This document shows, one piece after another, positions 31,721 through 56,640 of a DNA stretch of 64,000 bases. The DNA is from a virus. The DNA lies in the IMG/VR virus record IMGVR_UViG_3300025093_000018, positions 16,991-80,990 of that record, one strand, 5' to 3'. Within the stretch, counting starts at the first letter, position 1. The number at the start of each line of letters is the position of its first letter. Position numbers and translations under genes: made by a program. The notes beneath the pieces were generated by a model, which saw only the letters and a list, made by a program, of their open reading frames with translations, made no database searches and was not told the origin of the DNA.

Positions 31721-31824
31721 AACTTATTAACATTAAAATTTATATTACTTTAATATAAGAAAGTTTTTAATAAGGTCAATGGGATTCGCGATTCGCGTAT
31801 TGCATATCGTGATATGGAATATTG

Positions 31825-31897
31825 TTACCCCGCTAGGACTCGAACCCAGATCTGCGGGGCCGTAACCCACTGTTTTATCCAATTAAACTACAAGGCA
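31825..31897 (-). tRNA. tRNA-Arg(ACG)
   Basis: Acceptor TGCCTTG pairs with CGGGGTA using three G-U pairs. D arm GTTT/AAAC, anticodon stem GTGGG/CCCGC with loop TTACGGC, T arm with TTCGAGT. CCA is not encoded, as in all tRNAs here. Last of tRNA group 1. CGC, which it can read after inosine formation, is in leader peptide 1. Confidence 0.85.
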
Positions 31898-31903
31898 ATA
31901 TAG

Positions 31904-31974
31904 AGCACCTGGTAGGATTCGAACCTACGTCTGAGGTTTTGCAGACCCCTGCCTAGCCACTCGGCCACAGGTGC
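31904..31974 (-). tRNA. tRNA-Cys(GCA)
   Basis: Perfect acceptor GCACCTG/CAGGTGC, D arm GCC/GGC, anticodon loop CTGCAAA, T arm GTAGG-TTCGAAT-CCTAC. Discriminator T. Its codons TGT and TGC both occur in leader peptide 1. Confidence 0.92.
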
Positions 31975-31978
31975 GTAG

Positions 31979-32049
31979 CACGACAGGAAGGATTCGAACC
32001 TTCATGATACGGTTTTGGAGACCGATCAGCACAACCTACGCTCTGAAGT
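31979..32049 (-). tRNA. tRNA-Trp(CCA), degenerate acceptor and D arm
   Basis: The anticodon arm (CGGT-CTCCAAA-ACCG) and T arm (GAAGG-TTCGAAT-CCTTC) are clear. The acceptor (ACTTCAG against CTGTCGT) pairs at only five of seven positions and the D arm is short. It may still be functional with editing or may be decaying. TGG occurs once in leader peptide 1. Confidence 0.75.
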
Positions 32050-32055
32050 AAATAT

Positions 32056-32110
32056 TGTTATTTATATCCGATTAGTAAGGTTATAAGTGACTAACCAGAT
32101 ATAAATAACA
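32056..32110. repeat. Perfect 13-bp inverted repeat hairpin inside tRNA group 1
   Basis: TGTTATTTATATC and GATATAAATAACA are exact inverted repeats around a 29-base loop. The loop itself can form GGTTA/TAACC. It fills the spacer between tRNA-Trp and tRNA-Leu, and may guide processing of the polycistronic tRNA transcript. Confidence 0.8.
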
Positions 32111-32118
32111 AGTTTTGT

Positions 32119-32199
32119 AGCCGGGGCGGGAATCGAACCCGCACGTCCTAGGGACAACGGATTTTAAGTCCGTCGCGTCTACCTGTTCCGCCACCCGGC
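32119..32199 (-). tRNA. tRNA-Leu(TAA)
   Basis: Class II tRNA: acceptor GCCGGG with one terminal mismatch, D arm GGCGGAACAGGTAGACGC, anticodon arm ACGGA-CTTAAAA-TCCGT, long variable arm (TGTCCCTAGGACG), T arm with TTCGATT. TTA, its codon, occurs three times in leader peptide 1. Confidence 0.92.
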
Positions 32200-32262
32200 C
32201 ATAGATTATATTTGTTTCATTACCATTCACGTACAGTGAACAGGGACTTTTATTGAACATTG

Positions 32263-32343
32263 TAGCTTCGGTGGGATTCGAACCCACAAACCTCTTGCTT
32301 CTAAGGCAAGGTACTCTTCCATTCGTCTTTACGGCACGAAGCT
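32263..32343 (-). tRNA. tRNA with TAG anticodon (Leu-type reading), atypical D region
   Basis: Acceptor AGCTTCG/CGAAGCT is perfect, and so are the anticodon stem CTTGC/GCAAG (loop CTTAGAA, anticodon TAG, reading CUA and perhaps CUN) and the T arm GTGGG-TTCGAAT-CCCAC. Two features are odd. The variable loop is only about six bases, unlike class II Leu tRNAs, and about 26 bases lie between acceptor and anticodon stem instead of about 19. Identity as Leu is therefore uncertain. Confidence 0.75.
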
Positions 32344-32348
32344 ATTTG

Positions 32349-32424
32349 TAGCCCTAGAGAGGATCGAACTCTCTTTTCCGCAGTGAAAACGCGACGTCCT
32401 AACCAACAATTAGACGATAGGGCC
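32349..32424 (-). tRNA. tRNA-Glu(TTC)
   Basis: Acceptor GGCCCTA/TAGGGCT with a first G-U pair, D arm GTC/GAC, anticodon loop TTTTCAC, T arm GAGAG-TTCGATC-CTCTC. It is the first tRNA after the group 1 attenuator. GAA occurs three times in leader peptide 1. Confidence 0.9.
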
Positions 32425-32430
32425 ATAAAA

Positions 32431-32459
32431 CAAAAAACCCCGGTGGTTACCGAGGTTCT
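32431..32459 (-). terminator. Attenuator terminator before tRNA group 1
   Basis: On the minus strand AACCTCGGT, loop AACC, ACCGGGGTT (one wobble) then six T. It lies between leader ORF 1 and tRNA-Glu. The AGAACCTC of its 5' side is perfectly complementary to GAGGTTCT inside the leader ORF (32525-32532), so the two structures exclude each other. Confidence 0.92.
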
Positions 32460-32500
32460 TTAGTGTTTAACTTTAAAACTTTAAATTATGTCAATCAAAT

Positions 32501-32587
32501 TCAAATATCTTTAGCGCATACACCAGAACCTCCGTTGGATTCTTCCAACAGCCATAAACAAAGTTCTAATGTGCGTAATGTTTTCAT
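32501..32587 (-). CDS. Leader peptide 1 (28 aa), attenuation of tRNA group 1
   Basis: Starts at 32587, five bases after a TAAATTTG box, so the transcript may be almost leaderless. Residues 4-16 are LRTLELCLWLLEE: 12 of 13 are Leu, Arg, Glu, Cys or Trp, the amino acids of the six tRNAs that follow. The codons include TTA x3, GAA x3, TGT, TGG and CGC, matching those anticodons; TGC recurs at residue 24. A pause-type hairpin (GTTGG-AAGAAT-CCAAC) lies at codons 13-18, and the antiterminator strand GAGGTTCT at codons 19-21. A ribosome stalled for lack of these tRNAs would leave the antiterminator free and allow tRNA transcription. The peptide itself probably has no other role. Confidence 0.85.
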   Translation of the reverse strand: MKTLRTLELCLWLLEESNGGSGVCAKDI

Positions 32588-32591
32588 ATTG

Positions 32592-32599
32592 CAAATTTA
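32592..32599 (-). promoter_or_regulatory. TAnnTTTG promoter box for leader 1 and tRNA group 1
   Basis: The minus strand reads TAAATTTG four bases before ATATG of the leader start. Spacing implies transcription starts near the ATG. The same TAnATTTGCA form precedes leader 2 and the RepL-like gene. Confidence 0.65.
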
Positions 32600-32626
32600 A
32601 TAATAAAATTTAAAAGTAAAATGGGG

Positions 32627-33073
32627 TTAATCGTAAACTCGAACTTCTATAGTGTGATTTTTATAAAACTCGTTATTTACATAAGTTCCAGCAGAGTTAA
32701 CCATTTCATAATAAATAGTATTTACATCTTCCCAATACGCTAATACGTGACTATTACCATTTTGTGCTGTATTATTATGAAAAACTGCAGTTTTACCTTC
32801 TGTAAATACTCCAGCTAAGGTCATATAATAACCACCTGGGTACCCAGCATAACTCCAAACAGGTGTTCCTCCTAAAGTATTTTCTAATACAGTAGCATCA
32901 GGAGCACTAGTACCTGATTGTGTTAATGTTGCTGTATATACTCTATAGGGTCTTACAGTCTTATTGGCTAAAGCTATAAGTTCCTCTCTAAGTCTATTAA
33001 TATCTTTTACATCTTTACCAGTATGTTGTATATTGGCTTTGATAGAATCTGTAGTATCAGATACTTGTCCCAT
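32627..33073 (-). CDS. Small tail-fibre-like protein
   Basis: 148 residues. The N-terminal 40 are helical (VSDTTDSIKANIQHTGKDV) and could trimerise. The rest is beta-rich, starting PYRVYTATLTQSGTSAPDAT and LENTLGGTPVWSYAGYPGGY, phrases I associate with fibre and structural proteins of Flavobacteriia and their phages. It precedes the attenuator of tRNA group 1 and follows a similar small gene. Confidence 0.65.
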   Translation of the reverse strand: MGQVSDTTDSIKANIQHTGKDVKDINRLREELIALANKTVRPYRVYTATLTQSGTSAPDATVLENTLGGTPVWSYAGYPGGYYMTLAGVFTEGKTAVFHNNTAQNGNSHVLAYWEDVNTIYYEMVNSAGTYVNNEFYKNHTIEVRVYD

Positions 33074-33099
33074 AATTGATTATTTTTAATTAAATTTTA

Positions 33100-33534
33100 T
33101 TAACTCTTAACTGACCAATCAATTACCATTGCAGCGTCTAATGCGTTAGAAGCGTGAGCATTAAAGATCTTAATAGTAAGGGTATCATCTGTAGGCTCTA
33201 CTTTAGAGATTACAGGCATTCCAGCTCCTGTATAACTAGAGATTACAGCTGTAACAATTGAACCTGTAGTTAGTAAAGTATTAGAAATAGTTAATACAGT
33301 TGCTTCTGTAAGAGCAGCAGTTGATAACGCAGCAGTAGTAGATTTACCAACTGAGTTATTTAATGTAGGTGTTGCACCTGTTGTTGTGTTGTCTGAAGCT
33401 TCACCTGTTAAGTAGTTAGCTACATCAGTCATGAAGTTTCTAAGGGTCGTAGTAAAATCTTTTCTATCTGAATTGTATTGTAAGTCAGCTAAGATTCTAG
33501 TTTTAAGACCCGCGGATCCTGTAATAGTTGCCAT
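33100..33534 (-). CDS. Small Thr/Ala-rich structural protein
   Basis: 144 residues, beginning ATITGSAGLKTRILADLQYNS, with a helical start and a beta-rich remainder (TAALTEATVLTISNTLL, TDDTLTIKIFNAHASNALDA). Composition and length resemble head-fibre or decoration proteins. It pairs with the 148-residue gene downstream. Function is not recognised. Confidence 0.6.
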   Translation of the reverse strand: MATITGSAGLKTRILADLQYNSDRKDFTTTLRNFMTDVANYLTGEASDNTTTGATPTLNNSVGKSTTAALSTAALTEATVLTISNTLLTTGSIVTAVISSYTGAGMPVISKVEPTDDTLTIKIFNAHASNALDAAMVIDWSVKS

Positions 33535-33635
33535 AATTTTTTATTTAAAATATTAATTAATATTGTTTATACGACTAAAGAATACAAAAATTTATCGTAA
33601 ATACAAGGTTAATTACAAACTATTTAATTTAAGTA

Positions 33636-35900
33636 TTATTTATAAGGTAATAGATTACTCTTTTTTACTGAGTTTGTTTTAAATTCTGGTAATGTATAAG
33701 CATTTCCAGTCTTTAAATAATCTTGTAACTGGGTAAACTTCTCTTTAATCTTGGTATCTTTTAAATATACTTCTCTAGCTTTAGGCCAATATCTAGCCTT
33801 TTCAAACTCTTCTTCAGTTCCTTCAAACATTAATCCCCTGATCTGTCCATCTATCCAATTCTCTTTAAACTGCTCTTTACCATCTCCCTCTCCATAATCT
33901 TCCTTAGACATTTCCCAATCACGCTCAAAATCTCCTTTATGTTTTTCCAAGAAAGCATCCTCAAATTCTTTTCTATGTTTTTTGTACACTTTATCACTAG
34001 TCATACCATGCATCATATCTAACATGATAGACTGCTCGTTGTTAGTTTTAGGGTCATAGACTATACCATGAGTACCAGGTTTAGGGTGATCATATGAATA
34101 TCCACTATAATAAGTTACTTTTTCTCGTCCTTCTTTAGGACTGAAATACTCTATACTACCAACACCAGTCTTATCTCTTGTGAACTCTGGGTCAGATTTT
34201 ATAGTAACTTCACCCATGTTTTTAAATGCTGGATATTTATTATAGATGTTATCAAGCATTACCCCACCTTGTTGATACTTCAATAACACTCCTCCATTCC
34301 TTTTTGATTGTATTGATACAGCTCCAGATACTCCCACCAAAGGTGTTGTAGTGTAAACAGCATTTAAAAACTGTTTTAGGTCTTTTTTATCTAAATTCAC
34401 TACTAAATTAGTAATATCATTTGGTAAATCTCCTCCTATTCTACTGCTAGATTTTAATTGATCAATGGCTGCATCAGATATATCCCCACCACTCCATAAG
34501 CCCTTTTCTTTTAGATAGGATAGAGCTCTAACACCTCTAACTTGTTGTTCTGGTTTTTTATTTAAATATTCTATTGTACGAATAACTTGTGGATTATCAG
34601 ATTGTTGTCGTATAGTTTTAAAAGGTATCCCTTTCATACTATAGTCAATATTATACGTATTTGAGGCGTGTATAAATTCATGGTTAGCTATATTACTTAA
34701 CTCCTTATTATTAACGTTTTTATCTATACCTAACCAAACATGCGGGTTTTCATCTATAGTAGAAGAAAATCCTAACTGTCTAGTATCTACCCCGGTCATA
34801 TCTTTATACGTAACTTCAGTTTTATTTAACTTATGTAAAGCTATTGCTCTAGCTCTCTTAGCATCAGCCTTACTTTCTTTGGCTACAGACATTCTACGTT
34901 TTAACCATTCATCTGATTTTAACCAATTTTCTTGTTCTTTAAATGCTTTTTGTACTACCTCCAAATTCTTCTTACTTGGTATCACAGTAGGTGTGTTTAA
35001 TAAATCTTTCTTTTTATATAATTGCTTATTTATAATATGTTGTTGTTTATCTTTTGGAGACTTTTTAACTATTTCCCAAAACTCTCTATCTTTTGATGTT
35101 AATAATTTAATTTTATCATTTGATAATTTTAATATATCATCAACTGACTTAATATTATTAGTATTTGTATTTAAAGCGTCATATACATTTTTTACACTAC
35201 CATCCTGATTATAATGTATAGTTCTCTTTGTATCTATCTTTGCTTTACCTTCTGGGGATAAAAAAGAATTAAATATTTCCTCTTCTTTACTATAAATCGG
35301 TTTCTTTTTAGATAAATAAGGTTCTAATTTAGGGTCAAGAGTTGTTTTATTTAGTTTAGGATATATAACTGTTCCTTTATATACTTTAGGTGAAGGGGAT
35401 TTTCTTAGTAATCCTAAACCACTCTTACTTACAGGTTTAACATACTTACCAAGTTTAAGAGTATGCGCTGCTGCACCTATTTCTGGGGCTACAGCAATTA
35501 CATCTAAAGCTTGATCAACACCTTCCCAATAAGGGCTCTTAGTGATAGGATTTACATAAGACATTTGAGCGTACATAGCTGAACCTGGGTTTGCGTACAT
35601 AGTTAAATCTGCGGCAGTCTTCGCGGTACCTTTTGCTGTCCCTACAGGGTCATCTATAATTCTTGTCATAGAATTAAACGGTGTTATATCACCTAAAAAA
35701 TTCATAACACTATGACCTATTTGATCTAATTCTTCAGTTGTAGACTTAGATTTAACTGTAAATTCTGATAAATCAGGTGCCTGATAAACATCTGTTTTAG
35801 GGTTATACTTAGTTACGGTACCTTTTTTATAAGCTTTTTTATAATCAGAAGTTCCGTATTTAATCCCGCCACCTTTTTGGTATTTTAATAATATACCCAT
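33636..35900 (-). CDS. Large LLKYQ-GG motif protein with HExxH metalloprotease-like site, candidate cargo
   Basis: 754 residues. It starts MGILLKYQKGGG, and the motif returns at about 535-546 (NGGVLLKYQQGG), linking it to the protein at 15901-17664. A zinc-protease-like HEFIH lies at 407-411 in NIANHEFIHASNTYN. Residues 300-350 are Lys/Glu-rich helix, and the last 200 are charged. An Ala/Gly-rich stretch (IDDPVGTAKGTAKTAADL) occurs near residue 82-100. A virion cargo protein with peptidase activity, delivered or acting in maturation, would fit. The third zinc ligand is not identified. Confidence 0.65.
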   Translation of the reverse strand: MGILLKYQKGGGIKYGTSDYKKAYKKGTVTKYNPKTDVYQAPDLSEFTVKSKSTTEELDQIGHSVMNFLGDITPFNSMTRIIDDPVGTAKGTAKTAADLTMYANPGSAMYAQMSYVNPITKSPYWEGVDQALDVIAVAPEIGAAAHTLKLGKYVKPVSKSGLGLLRKSPSPKVYKGTVIYPKLNKTTLDPKLEPYLSKKKPIYSKEEEIFNSFLSPEGKAKIDTKRTIHYNQDGSVKNVYDALNTNTNNIKSVDDILKLSNDKIKLLTSKDREFWEIVKKSPKDKQQHIINKQLYKKKDLLNTPTVIPSKKNLEVVQKAFKEQENWLKSDEWLKRRMSVAKESKADAKRARAIALHKLNKTEVTYKDMTGVDTRQLGFSSTIDENPHVWLGIDKNVNNKELSNIANHEFIHASNTYNIDYSMKGIPFKTIRQQSDNPQVIRTIEYLNKKPEQQVRGVRALSYLKEKGLWSGGDISDAAIDQLKSSSRIGGDLPNDITNLVVNLDKKDLKQFLNAVYTTTPLVGVSGAVSIQSKRNGGVLLKYQQGGVMLDNIYNKYPAFKNMGEVTIKSDPEFTRDKTGVGSIEYFSPKEGREKVTYYSGYSYDHPKPGTHGIVYDPKTNNEQSIMLDMMHGMTSDKVYKKHRKEFEDAFLEKHKGDFERDWEMSKEDYGEGDGKEQFKENWIDGQIRGLMFEGTEEEFEKARYWPKAREVYLKDTKIKEKFTQLQDYLKTGNAYTLPEFKTNSVKKSNLLPYK

Positions 35901-35938
35901 ATCTAGGTAATGTACAAAAAATTATTAAAAATATAAAG

Positions 35939-36012
35939 TACTCCCGGTAGGATTCGAACCTGGAACCGTCCCCTTAGAAGGGGGATGCTCTATCCAGTTG
36001 AGCTACGGGGCC
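35939..36012 (-). tRNA. tRNA-Arg(TCT), imperfect acceptor and T stems
   Basis: D arm TAGCTCAACTGGATAGAGC and anticodon arm TCCCC-CTTCTAA-GGGGA are canonical, anticodon TCT. The acceptor (GGCCCCG against CGGGAGT) has two mismatches, and the T stem (CCAGG against CCTAC) pairs at only three positions around TTCGAAT. It follows its own attenuator, whose leader carries AGA. Confidence 0.85.
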
Positions 36013-36015
36013 AAA

Positions 36016-36048
36016 TAAAAAAGCCCCGGAACTTTGTAGTCCGAGGCT
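36016..36048 (-). terminator. Attenuator terminator before tRNA-Arg(TCT)
   Basis: On the minus strand AGCCTCGGA, nine-base loop, TCCGGGGCT, then a T run. Its 5' arm AGCCTCGGACT can pair at ten of eleven positions with AGTCCGCGGCT in leader ORF 3 (36097-36107). Confidence 0.9.
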
Positions 36049-36074
36049 TCCTGTTATATATGAATTATTCTTAC

Positions 36075-36167
36075 TTACATATTTACAAATACAGATAGCC
36101 GCGGACTCCGTCTCGAATCGACAGTTCCGTTACTCTTAATGCCTGTATTTATAATTATTGCTTGCAT
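36075..36167 (-). CDS. Leader peptide 3 (30 aa), attenuation of tRNA-Arg
   Basis: A 31-codon ORF between the metzincin gene and the terminator. Residues 17-24 are DSRRSPRL with codons AGA and CGG at 19-20 and CGG at 23; AGA is read by the downstream tRNA-Arg(TCT). Codons 21-24 contain the antiterminator strand. Flanking AAATACAG and CTGTATTT can close the whole region into a long stem with CGGA/TCCG inside. A box-like TATATTGC lies at 36175-36182, one T short of consensus. Support is weaker than for leaders 1 and 2 because only one amino acid is tested, but the architecture is the same. Confidence 0.65.
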   Translation of the reverse strand: MQAIIINTGIKSNGTVDSRRSPRLSVFVNM

Positions 36168-36199
36168 GTTGATTGCAATATAAATATTAAATTTTAAAC

Positions 36200-36799
36200 C
36201 TAAAAGGTCTTAGAATAATTTTTTAGCTTTTCTTTATCAGAACTTGAAAATTTAGATGAGTAGGTTAGGTTACCTTCTTCGCTCATTATATAATCCTCTG
36301 TACCACTATGGTATAAACCAAATAGATGTCCAAACTCATGTATAATAACCCTTGAACAATCCTTATTCGAATCCTGAAGACTGAGATCTACAAGGGCTAC
36401 AGCCTTTAAAGTACCTATACAGTTAGTATGAGCTGCTCCTATAACATCTTCGTCACTTCTACCTGTAATATACAAACTTATATCGGCCCAATTATTAGTT
36501 AACCTTTTAATAGAGGCTATTACAGAAAGATACGGGTTATAATCACTACCTCCATATGTAAAGGTAGAAATTTTAAAGTGGATGCCTACTTGAGCATATA
36601 CATTATTAACGTGGATCATAATCTCTTTAAGATCACTATAAGTTTTACTGGATGTGGTATCTACAAAGATATTTACGTTATAATGTTGGGTAGCTACTAA
36701 CTCCTGCGCATTAGATTTCAACACAGGATCAATTTTATATTGCCCTAGTAATGTAAAGCTGCAAACAAATAAGGCTAAAAATAATAAAAGTTTTTTCAT
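36200..36799 (-). CDS. Secreted metzincin-type metalloprotease
   Basis: 199 residues with an N-terminal signal peptide (KKLLLFLALFVCSFTLLGQ). The extended zinc motif HEFGHLFGLYH at 154-164 gives three His ligands and the catalytic Glu, and YIMSE at 170-174 supplies the Met-turn expected of metzincins. Only a minimal catalytic domain is present, without propeptide or sorting domain. It would act outside the cytoplasm on host envelope or extracellular protein. It lies among tRNA genes and is followed by the leader 3 attenuator. Lysis, surface remodelling or exclusion of other phages are possible roles. Confidence 0.85.
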   Translation of the reverse strand: MKKLLLFLALFVCSFTLLGQYKIDPVLKSNAQELVATQHYNVNIFVDTTSSKTYSDLKEIMIHVNNVYAQVGIHFKISTFTYGGSDYNPYLSVIASIKRLTNNWADISLYITGRSDEDVIGAAHTNCIGTLKAVALVDLSLQDSNKDCSRVIIHEFGHLFGLYHSGTEDYIMSEEGNLTYSSKFSSSDKEKLKNYSKTF

Positions 36800-36833
36800 A
36801 ATTTAAATCATATTTACATTCTCATAGTACTAA

Positions 36834-36874
36834 GGTAACACTTTTTATTTGAATAAAAAAGTGTAATTGTTACC
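36834..36874. terminator. Strong hairpin after tRNA group 2
   Basis: GGTAACA...TGTTACC-type ends enclose ACACTTTTTAT/ATAAAAAAGTGT with loop TTGA. On the minus strand it begins in the 3' end of tRNA-Gln and holds a T run inside the stem. It probably ends or trims the tRNA group 2 transcript. Confidence 0.65.
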
Positions 36875-36940
36875 AGGAGAGGATTCGAACCTCTACCTTC
36901 TGGACCAAAACCAGACGTCCTGCCATTAGACCACCCGGCA
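36870..36940 (-). tRNA. tRNA-Gln(TTG)
   Basis: Acceptor TGCCGGG/CCTGGTA with wobble, D arm GTCT/GGAC, anticodon arm TCTGG-TTTTGGT-CCAGA, T arm AGAGG-TTCGAAT-CCTCT. Last of group 2. Its codons CAA and CAG are both in leader peptide 2. Confidence 0.92.
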
Positions 36941-36946
36941 ATTTTG

Positions 36947-37019
36947 TGGACGAGGGCGGATTCGAACCACCGACGCTAGGCTCTTCAGGCCCACGCTCTA
37001 CCAACTGAGCTACTCGTCC
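36947..37019 (-). tRNA. tRNA-Phe(GAA)
   Basis: Acceptor GGACGAG/CTCGTCC, D arm GCTC/GAGC, anticodon loop CTGAAGA, T arm GGTGG-TTCGAAT-CCGCC. TTT occurs three times in leader peptide 2. Confidence 0.93.
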
Positions 37020-37026
37020 AGTTTAG

Positions 37027-37114
37027 GGTGTACGATGGGATTCGAACCCATGACGTGTCACTAACCGTACCGGGACCACAACCCAGCGCCTTCGACCGCT
37101 TGGCTACGCACACC
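37027..37114 (-). tRNA. tRNA-His(GTG) with a long variable arm
   Basis: Acceptor GTGTGCG/CGTACAC, extra 5' G opposite discriminator C (the His identity pair), anticodon arm CTGGG-TTGTGGT-CCCGG, T arm ATGGG-TTCGAAT-CCCAT. The variable region is about 18 bases, whereas tRNA-His is normally class I, and the D arm (GCCAAGCGGTCGAAGGC) looks like Ser/Leu/Tyr tRNAs. CAT is in leader peptide 2. Confidence 0.85.
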
Positions 37115-37120
37115 ATGTAG

Positions 37121-37202
37121 TGGGACCGGGAGGACTCGAACCTCCAAGCCGTTAGGACCCGGGTTACAACCGGGGACGCTACCAATTACGCTCTACGTTC
37201 CC
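37121..37202 (-). tRNA. tRNA-Tyr(GTA)
   Basis: Acceptor GGGAACG/CGGTCCC with one mismatch, anticodon arm CCCGG-TTGTAAC-CCGGG, class II variable arm as expected of bacterial tRNA-Tyr, T arm GGAGG-TTCGAGT-CCTCC. TAT is in leader peptide 2. Confidence 0.9.
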
Positions 37203-37318
37203 ATATTATATACGATCACATATAATCCCCGATATATCAGGTAATTTTATAATATTATACCCGCTATAGCATGGTTTTATATGTTTTACATATATTATAC
37301 CCTAATAGGTATAATTTG
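37203..37318 (-). other. AT-rich spacer with hairpins in tRNA group 2
   Basis: 116 bases between tRNA-Ala and tRNA-Tyr, with ATATG-TTTT-ACATAT-type and TATACC/GGTATA hairpins. No gene is seen. It may separate two processing units. Confidence 0.4.
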
Positions 37319-37392
37319 TGGAGCTACCGGGATTCGAACCCGGAACCTCTTCCGTGCAAAGGAAGCGCTCTTCCAGTTAGAGCTACAGCCCC
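37319..37392 (-). tRNA. tRNA-Ala(TGC)
   Basis: Acceptor GGGGCTG/TAGCTCC carries the G3-U70 pair that specifies alanine. Anticodon arm CTTCC-TTTGCAC-GGAAG, T arm CCGGG-TTCGAAT-CCCGG. GCA and GCC are in leader peptide 2. Confidence 0.94.
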
Positions 37393-37397
37393 ATATG

Positions 37398-37471
37398 TAG
37401 CGGGGGCGAGATTCGAACTCGCGTCCTTCGGGTTATGAGCCCGACGTCCTAGACCCCTAGACCACCCCGCT
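37398..37471 (-). tRNA. tRNA-Met(CAT)
   Basis: Acceptor AGCGGGG/CCCCGCT, anticodon arm TCGGG-CTCATAA-CCCGA. The three G-C pairs next to the loop are an initiator trait, but position 1-72 is paired, unlike typical initiators. Elongator Met, initiator or Ile(CAU) cannot be told apart here. An internal ATG codon is in leader peptide 2. Confidence 0.88.
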
Positions 37472-37474
37472 AAG

Positions 37475-37547
37475 TCGAGTGAGCTGGATTCGAACCAGCG
37501 AATTCGTGCTCCCAAAGCACGCCCGTATAGCCTCTGCGTACCACTCG
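37475..37547 (-). tRNA. tRNA-Pro(TGG)
   Basis: Acceptor CGAGTGG/TCACTCG with wobble, anticodon arm CGTGC-TTTGGGA-GCACG, T arm with TTCGAAT. First tRNA after the group 2 attenuator. CCG is in leader peptide 2. Confidence 0.92.
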
Positions 37548-48392: not shown

Positions 48393-49778
48393 ATGAAAAA
48401 ACTTTTATTTATTGCACTATTATTGATACCTTTCTTAGGTACATCACAAATAGTGTATACAAACGCAAATGACATTGTGATATTATCAATGAATGATATC
48501 CAGTCAACATACTCAGCTACCTGGGACTTTGATATTGATGGTGATAATCAAAGAGATTTTGTATTTAAAATCAAAAAAGGTAGTATATCAAATTTATTTC
48601 AAAGCCTTTCAATTGCTAAAGACGCAACTTGGGATAATCAAGTATTTACAGAAATAACTGGTAATCCTTTAGGTAGTAATCCAAACACGGACCAAATGGT
48701 TGATATGGAAGGACAATTAGTATGTCCGGGATTATATATTCCATCTCCATATACATCAGCTTGGATAGGTACTCAAGGTTGGTTTGAAGGTACAGCAATT
48801 GAATGGGAAAATGATGATTTACATAATGGAGATATATCTCTCTATTTAGGGTTAGAATTTACAAGAATTCATCCTATTAGTGGTGATACTAATTTACATT
48901 ATGGATATGCACATATTGGATTAGGAGCTAATAGAGCTCTTGTATTACATAGTTATGCATGGAATCCAAACCCTGGAGAATGTATAGTAGCTGATGATTA
49001 TAATTTAGCTAACTCCGGAATAATTTGTACACAAAATGTAACAGTTTATGATACCACAAATATATCAGTATTTGATACTACTATGGTAACAATAAATGAT
49101 ACTACATTTTTTAATGTTCCTATTTGGGATACAATTATTCAAACTGTATTTGATACAACTTTTATTCAATCCAATGATACCATTTATTGGAATGATACAA
49201 TATCATATGTAGACACTACGTATTTTCAATCTAATGATACTATTTATTGGAATGATACTACGTTTGTAACACATGTTGATACAATGACTTTTAATGATAC
49301 AATTACCTATGTGGATACTCTTACATATATTCATATAGATACAAATTGGATTAATTTAGGTACTTATTTAGATACATTAACTATAACAGTCGTCGATACT
49401 ATTATATTTAATGATACTGTCACAACACAAGTTTACGACACTCTCAATTTATATGTAGTAGATACTATATATCAAACAGTTTGGGATACAGTTGATTGTG
49501 GTGGAGGCAGTCCTATAGGAACTGATGATCCAATAGGAAATACTTCAACACTCAGATCTGGTAATTTTGGTTTATATCCAAATCCAGCAGAAACTGTAGT
49601 AAATATTCAAGGTTTCTTTGATGATGTAGCTGATTATTATTTAATAGATATTTTAGGTAGTCGAACGGAAATTAATGATCCAACTATTTATGTTGATCAT
49701 TTTCCACCTGGTATTTATATGATAGAGAAGATACACTCAGACGGAAAACGAGAAGTTGAAAAATTTCAAAAACATTAG
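48393..49778 (+). CDS. Secreted protein with Asp-Thr repeats and T9SS C-terminal sorting domain
   Basis: 461 residues. Signal peptide KKLLFIALLLIPFLGTSQ. Residues 25-205 form a beta-rich domain (SATWDFDIDGDNQRDFVFKI). Residues about 213-375 are repeats of a DT(T/I) unit such as FDTTFIQSNDTIYWNDT, suggesting an extended stalk. The last ~70 residues (NFGLYPNPAETVVNIQGF, YYLIDILGSRTEIN, FPPGIYMIEKIHSDGKREVE) match the type A sorting domain of the type IX secretion system (Por_Secre_tail). The protein would be exported and anchored or released by host T9SS, found only in Bacteroidota. Confidence 0.85.
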   Translation: MKKLLFIALLLIPFLGTSQIVYTNANDIVILSMNDIQSTYSATWDFDIDGDNQRDFVFKIKKGSISNLFQSLSIAKDATWDNQVFTEITGNPLGSNPNTDQMVDMEGQLVCPGLYIPSPYTSAWIGTQGWFEGTAIEWENDDLHNGDISLYLGLEFTRIHPISGDTNLHYGYAHIGLGANRALVLHSYAWNPNPGECIVADDYNLANSGIICTQNVTVYDTTNISVFDTTMVTINDTTFFNVPIWDTIIQTVFDTTFIQSNDTIYWNDTISYVDTTYFQSNDTIYWNDTTFVTHVDTMTFNDTITYVDTLTYIHIDTNWINLGTYLDTLTITVVDTIIFNDTVTTQVYDTLNLYVVDTIYQTVWDTVDCGGGSPIGTDDPIGNTSTLRSGNFGLYPNPAETVVNIQGFFDDVADYYLIDILGSRTEINDPTIYVDHFPPGIYMIEKIHSDGKREVEKFQKH

Positions 49779-55782: not shown

Positions 55783-56106
55783 ATGAAAAACTTAATATTA
55801 TTAAAAGATTTACCCGCAATAGAAATATATGGAGTAATTTATCAAAGACCAGCTGGTACAGTTTATGCTTGGGATGGTGATGAAGAATGGGATTTAATAC
55901 CAGAATATACTGGAGGAAATATTACAAAAGAAGATTTAAAAAATAATTCTGATTTTTATAAGCTTACTACTAAAACCCCAACATATAATAAACCTCTTGA
56001 AATAAATAATAAACCAGTTGTATTTTTAAAGGGGGAAATAAAAATAGGTTGTGTTAATGTTGATAATAAAACTGTTTTAGAAATAGCATCTTTATTAAAA
56101 GATTAA
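55783..56106 (+). CDS. 107-residue protein, unknown
   Basis: KNLILLKDLPAIEIYGVIYQ, then YAWDGDEEWDLIPEYTGGN. Partly beta-rich. It shares phrasing with the start of the 712-residue protein at 61351-63489 only loosely. It may be the first coding gene after the large RNA. Confidence 0.6.
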   Translation: MKNLILLKDLPAIEIYGVIYQRPAGTVYAWDGDEEWDLIPEYTGGNITKEDLKNNSDFYKLTTKTPTYNKPLEINNKPVVFLKGEIKIGCVNVDNKTVLEIASLLKD

Positions 56107-56283
56107 AGATAAACGTTTCGGTAGATTTAGCCGCTTAACGTGGGTGTTGTAGTTTATACCTGTGAAGAGAACCCAAAAACTACAGTCGTCATATACTAAA
56201 ATATGTCCGATAATAAATCAAAGAGAGGGGATTGGCCTTATATTCCCCTCTTTCTTTAAAAAACATTTATTATATTAAAAACT
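56107..56283 (+). terminator. Structured 3' region ending in terminator before the tmRNA gene
   Basis: TGTAGTTT/AAACTACA (8 bp) and CATAT-ACTAAA-ATATG hairpins are followed by the terminator AGAGGGGA...TCCCCTCT with T-rich tail (56223-56258). This separates the preceding gene from the tmRNA locus. Confidence 0.65.
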
Positions 56284-56640
56284 TAATTACTGTTAGGCTT
56301 TTATACTTAACTGTTTGGACGAGGGTTCGAATCCCTCCGACTCCACAACGCATCAGTTAGCGAAGGTAGAAAACGCTTGCGTAAACCTACCTAAAAAATT
56401 GGCAGAGTACCCGGAGATACTTGTACACTAAATGGTTGAAATAACCACTGCCAACAATATGGGGTCGTTTTTGGTTTTGACAGCAGAAGACGAGGTATTA
56501 GATAGGTAATTATAATCTCTTAAACGGAGAATTTGATATGGAGCACAATCCATTTATTGTGCAAGAAGAAGCAGTTGCTGAGAAATTGGCAGCCTAATCT
56601 CATTAGTCCCGGTGAAGTATAGTACCCGGGACTTCTTATT
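56284..56640 (+). ncRNA. ssrA: Circularly permuted, two-piece tmRNA gene
   Basis: The acceptor piece comes first (56284-56345): GTTTGGAC, T arm GAGGG-TTCGAAT-CCCTC, acceptor CGACTCC, A73. The coding piece follows (56461-56634): acceptor GGGGTCG, TTTTTGGTTTTGACAGC as in tmRNA D regions, then the tag ORF. GGGGTCG/CGACTCC pair with G3-U70, the alanine signal. Helix 2 can form from AGGTAT/ATACTT and GGTAAT/ATTACT, nested correctly. The tag frame ends AVAEKLAA then TAA, with the stop inside the TGAGA/TCTCA hairpin (H5). Pieces H5 and GCACAAT/ATTGTGC precede a terminal AGTCCCGG/CCGGGACT stem. tmRNA rescues stalled ribosomes with SmpB. Confidence 0.88.
56346..56460 (+). other. Intervening segment of the permuted tmRNA
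   Basis: 115 bases between A73 of the acceptor piece and G1 of the coding piece, expected to be cut out. It is highly structured: AGGTAG/CTACCT around ACG-CTTG-CGT, and TTGGCAG/CTGCCAA enclosing GTAC/GTAC and TGGTT-GAAAT-AACCA. The CTTG tetraloop also occurs in the tRNA-like RNA at 52863. Confidence 0.65.

Follow-up and report, generated by a model that had tools for sequence, protein, structure and literature searches.

Circularly permuted (two-piece) tmRNAs have been described from alphaproteobacteria, betaproteobacteria, cyanobacteria and mitochondria. Among phages, 53 of 133 unique tmRNA structures have been called two-piece, and 50 of these 53 came from marine or aquatic phages (PMC9004378). 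A literature search by title and abstract returned no description of a permuted tmRNA in crAss-like phages (Crassvirales). Several of the crAss-like permuted tmRNAs treated below are nevertheless already in GenBank under the plain label 'SsrA', and they may also be among 2025 tmRNA database entries. Here we report a complete circularly permuted tmRNA gene, with the acceptor piece before the coding piece, at positions 56284-56640 of a 64,000-nt stretch of DNA (hereafter the window; positions 16,991-80,990 of the 80,990-base IMG/VR virus record IMGVR_UViG_3300025093_000018). Based on our data, it is very probably a functional, phage-encoded, two-piece tmRNA of a crAss-like phage.

The assignment of the phage to Crassvirales draws on its predicted proteins. 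Crassvirus capsid and muzzle proteins are both encoded in the window (Crass_capsid, PF23898, E 2.5e-19; crAss_MUZ, PF25731, E 2.5e-25), and the portal is related to crAss-like portals, with 20-30% identity. In a 461-aa ORF at 48393-49778, the C-terminal sorting domain of type IX secretion gave a weak match (25.6 bits, against a cut-off of 27), which fits a Bacteroidota host. Eleven tRNA genes lie on the minus strand at 31824-37547. No permuted tmRNA was found in 12 portal-related contigs, all of which are fragments.

The Rfam model of permuted tmRNA, RF04321 (tmRNA_permuted), matched window positions 56286-56597 over model positions 1-213 with 51.1 bits (cmscan, E 4.3e-7; cut-off 47 bits), and ARAGORN independently called a tmRNA* (permuted) with a 23-aa tag, GEFDMEHNPFIVQEEAVAEKLAA. 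RF04321 merges the alphaproteobacterial (RF01849), betaproteobacterial (RF01850) and cyanobacterial (RF01851) families, for none of which a match in the window was reported after clan competition. A one-piece tmRNA in the window was rejected, RF00023 reaching only 21.8 bits (cut-off 47) and the region between 55.5 and 57.5 kb holding a single T-arm-like site; the predicted order of the two pieces was verified, with no one-piece alternative nearby. A T arm followed by a fully pairing 5' acceptor half with a T[TC]GAC motif is seen at a single place in the whole window, whereas none of 30 mononucleotide shuffles contained one; a chance match was rejected on this ground.

The score of the window gene only just exceeds the cut-off, and this cut-off lacks full specificity. 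It was passed by 4 of 369 Gammaproteobacteria, three of which have one-piece tmRNAs (RF00023, 189-242 bits), and some one-piece gammaproteobacterial tmRNAs (L134-L138) scored about 47-53 bits with it (47.8-52.7). Used alone, RF04321 can mislabel some ordinary one-piece gammaproteobacterial tmRNAs as permuted. Acceptance on the Rfam score alone was rejected for this reason, and the claim of permutation rests on gene order and covariation rather than on bits.

The features of the gene are listed in the table below. Both alanine identity elements, G3-U70 and A73, are present, and CCA is absent from the gene, the bases after A73 being CAA. As predicted from the letters, the acceptor halves pair completely with G3-U70 among their pairs, and the T arm is canonical. 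The predicted KLAA end of the tag was confirmed, and the H5 hairpin that had been placed around the stop is plausible (TGAGA 56579-56583 with TCTCA 56598-56602). When the coding piece is folded by itself, however, the minimum-energy structure lacks this hairpin and prefers another.

Features of the permuted tmRNA gene (window coordinates)
Feature	Position	Strand	Basis or remark
Acceptor piece (5' E-helix strand to discriminator A73)	56284-56345	+	RF04321, ARAGORN, covariation
E-helix strand TAATTAC (partner GTAATTA, 56506-56512)	56284-56290	+	Covariation
GGAC	56317-56320	+	Part of acceptor piece
T arm, canonical TTCGAAT loop	56321-56337	+	Part of acceptor piece
3' acceptor half CGACTCC	56338-56344	+	7/7 pairs with 56461-56467
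A73	56345	+	End of acceptor piece
Intervening sequence, about 115 nt, expected to be removed	56346-56460	+	Position between acceptor halves
Coding piece (5' acceptor half, GGTTTTGAC, P2 strand, tag, 3' hairpin)	56461-56640	+	RF04321, ARAGORN, folding
5' acceptor half GGGGTCG	56461-56467	+	Start of coding piece
GGTTTTGAC	56473-56481	+	Coding piece
E-helix partner strand GTAATTA	56506-56512	+	Coding piece; covariation
Tag frame GEFDMEHNPFIVQEEAVAEKLAA, 23 codons	56526-56594	+	ARAGORN
Stop TAA	56595-56597	+	RF04321 match ends there
GTCCCGG/CCGGGAC hairpin past the stop, probable 3' end of coding piece	56606-56632	+	Minimum-energy and centroid folds

The intervening sequences of the relatives measure 15-215 nt. 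That of cr114_1 contains a gene for tRNA-His (L002, 2576-2648), and PMC11915505 notes a comparable case. Just upstream of the window gene, at 56107-56260, there is a structured intergenic stretch (z -2.35) in which a GC-rich hairpin is found close to the 3' end. We found no Rfam match at cut-off for it and, searching with 56105-56270, no credible homologue among phages. The Rfam scan of the window returned no riboswitch.

Covariation was studied in 20 phage or prophage sequences, the window included, parsed by motif; cr272_1 was left unparsed. The parser required seven acceptor pairs, so that complete pairing in 20/20 sequences follows from selection and only the compensating changes count. 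Such changes, affecting both sides, were found at acceptor positions 4 (GC 16, CG 4), 5 (CG 12, GC 5, TA 3), 6 (TA 10, AT 7, CG 3) and 7 (GC 13, TA 7), and G3-U70 is present in all 20. The E helix, which joins both pieces, was assessed in 11 distinct phage sequences, its register being set by two sequence motifs and not optimised for pairing; four Oafivirinae sequences without the motif were left out of the count. We found 59 of 66 cells paired, against a mean of 36.8 in shuffled controls, and only one of 20,000 shuffles was as good. Together with the model match, the ARAGORN call and the Crassvirales capsid and muzzle proteins, these results uphold the prediction of a phage-encoded permuted tmRNA.

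Covariation also bears on whether the gene is merely the decayed, non-functional remnant of a permuted tmRNA. In favour of such a remnant are the lack of SmpB in the phage (none was found in 15 phage records) and a tag that is long and unlike host tags. We regard it as very improbable, since the acceptor stem, G3-U70, the T loop, GGTTTTGAC and the E helix are all intact, the 23-codon tag is open and closed by a stop, and the paired positions covary in relatives.

For a working gene, the following course may be drawn from established tmRNA biology, on which processing, charging, tagging and degradation are all modelled here. A single precursor would be transcribed, host RNase P would cut at G56461 to give the coding piece its 5' end, and 3' processing followed by host CCA addition would produce the acceptor end at A56345. 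The intervening sequence of about 115 nt would be lost, and both pieces would be kept together by pairing in the acceptor stem, in P2 and in the E helix. Host AlaRS would charge the molecule via G3-U70. As no SmpB was found in the phage records, host SmpB would be used, bringing the tmRNA to stalled ribosomes with EF-Tu. The ribosome would then restart at GGA 56526 and append the 23-aa tag, whose KLAA end should direct the product to host proteases. The alanine identity elements (G3-U70 and A73), together with the resume codon and a tag that ends in KLAA, suggest working trans-translation with proteolytic tagging.

The tag could also serve another end, the tmRNA freeing ribosomes and the tag protecting, marking or mistargeting proteins, so that host rescue would be reprogrammed. 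Tags in these phages are longer than, and unlike, those of the hosts (GxxNYALAA, ANDYSYAMAA), and the ends NVA, HVA and IGA occur among them; that the window tag may differ from host tags had been anticipated in the original prediction. The KLAA end of the window tag is, however, close to the LAA and MAA ends of host tags, and we consider a role mainly other than degradation unlikely.

The permuted form, scored as found by ARAGORN and/or RF04321, spans four subfamilies of Suoliviridae, that is, Uncouvirinae (cr114_1, cr125_1), Boorivirinae (cr50_1, cr10_1), Loutivirinae (cr53_1, cr52_1) and Oafivirinae (cr7_1, cr124_1, cr130_1, cr131_1, cr272_1). A cr60_1-like contig, Chryseobacterium phage MA9V-3 and additional IMG/VR contigs have it too. 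The loci of cr125_1, cr52_1, cr272_1, cr131_1, the cr60_1-like contig and L030 score below the RF04321 cut-off. No permuted tmRNA was found in cr1_1, cr109_1, cr113_1, cr4_1 and cr56_1, nor in the Steigviridae examined (crAss001, Kolpuevirus, cr108_1, phi14:2), and two pattern matches (L226, L227) gave no tmRNA call. Most of the gut crAss-like permuted loci examined have RAGATH sRNAs (RAGATH-9, -22, -20, -7-assoc) within about 2 kb upstream on the same strand (L009-L012, L028, L029, L031, L032, L181), a possible association between these sRNAs and the permuted tmRNA of gut crAss-like phages. For the window, the Rfam scan showed no RAGATH RNA in the corresponding position.

On the host side, RF04321 exceeded its cut-off in only 1 of 395 Bacteroidota genomes, in a search that ran under the stricter filters of Infernal and could therefore miss weak permuted genes. 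The sole locus is on a 1.6-Mb contig amid phage-type replication genes, as judged from ORF translations, in what seems to be a prophage-like region. An ordinary one-piece tmRNA (160 bits) is also present in that genome. One-piece tmRNA was over cut-off in 59 of 61 Bacteroidota genomes. When bacterial genomes were scanned for the phage motif by pattern, tRNAs and chance matches turned up, and 14 loci passed through ARAGORN gave no tmRNA. The contrast drawn beforehand between a two-piece phage gene and one-piece Bacteroidota hosts therefore holds; the phage case as such had been called unexpected, but it is not isolated, given the many crAss-like phages listed above and the earlier two-piece reports (PMC9004378).

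The origin of the permutation was approached through the 56-column tRNA-like domain, used both for identity comparisons and for a tree. Over these columns, the window gene is 91% identical to a Bacteroidota one-piece tmRNA (L094) and at most 62% identical to 25 alphaproteobacterial permuted tmRNAs. Identity to the Rfam consensus is 73% for the betaproteobacterial and 62% for the cyanobacterial type, two lineages represented by Rfam consensus lines and one genome only. The T loop of the alphaproteobacterial permuted genes differs (GGCGGTA type). Phage tags were called with G or D as their first residue, where alphaproteobacterial permuted tags almost always have A; one-piece host tags of the L094 type (GEDNYALAA, GNEEFALAA, DNTSYALAA) share the G/D start with the phage tags. 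On a maximum likelihood tree, with few columns and rough support, the phage sequences fall among Bacteroidota sequences. The AU test rejected a clade of phage and alphaproteobacterial sequences (p 0.019) and, weakly, a single clade of all permuted sequences (p 0.044). The phage permuted sequences do not form a single clade on the tree, though the AU test did not reject one (p 0.106).

With a tRNA-like domain and resume context of Bacteroidota type, the phage permutation is probably separate from the alphaproteobacterial one; over the 56 columns compared, a separation from at least that lineage is likely. The same data weigh on an acquisition by transfer, with a permuted tmRNA of alphaproteobacterial, betaproteobacterial or cyanobacterial kind as the source and no separate permutation required. 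Gene order is identical in these lineages, and the betaproteobacterial and cyanobacterial Rfam models match some of the relatives' phage loci with 27-41 bits, below their cut-offs of 84 and 70. The T loop and the mostly A-initial tags of alphaproteobacterial permuted genes, the lower identities to all three permuted types than to the Bacteroidota one-piece gene, and the AU test against a clade of phage and alphaproteobacterial sequences make a transfer improbable in our judgement. We consider it reasonably probable that a Bacteroidota one-piece tmRNA was separately permuted in or alongside crAss-like phages and kept across Suoliviridae as a rescue tool borrowing host SmpB. If so, there would be a further two-piece lineage in abundant gut phages, meaning that this permutation has happened repeatedly and that viruses can retain it. 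A host with the one-piece form and a phage with the two-piece form would make a natural pair for studying the roles of two-piece architecture and altered tag in infection.

The window gene shares with the RF04321 family the succession of acceptor piece, intervening sequence and coding piece, the tRNA-like domain and a tag with its stop, but differs in its canonical T loop and GGTTTTGAC of Bacteroidota type, its G-initial tag and its low score. Compared with the alphaproteobacterial RF01849, for which no model match was reported, it has the T loop TTCGAAT and a tag starting GEF instead of the ANDN type. The marine phages Melnitz and pelagiphage Mosig also encode a permuted tmRNA, that of Melnitz being of alphaproteobacterial type with a glutamine riboswitch (PMC9004378), whereas ours is of Bacteroidota type with no riboswitch found. 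The SsrA genes of cr114_1, cr125_1, cr50_1, cr10_1 and MA9V-3, whose annotations are silent on permutation, have the permuted architecture and conserved elements in common with the window gene, the tag of which is longer (23 aa) and of other sequence. Finally, the tmRNA of Cellulophaga phage Calle (Pervagoviridae) is one-piece, unlike the permuted one described here, and yet the two have GGTTTTGACAG, GGACGAGGGTTCGA and the resume context AAACGGA in common.
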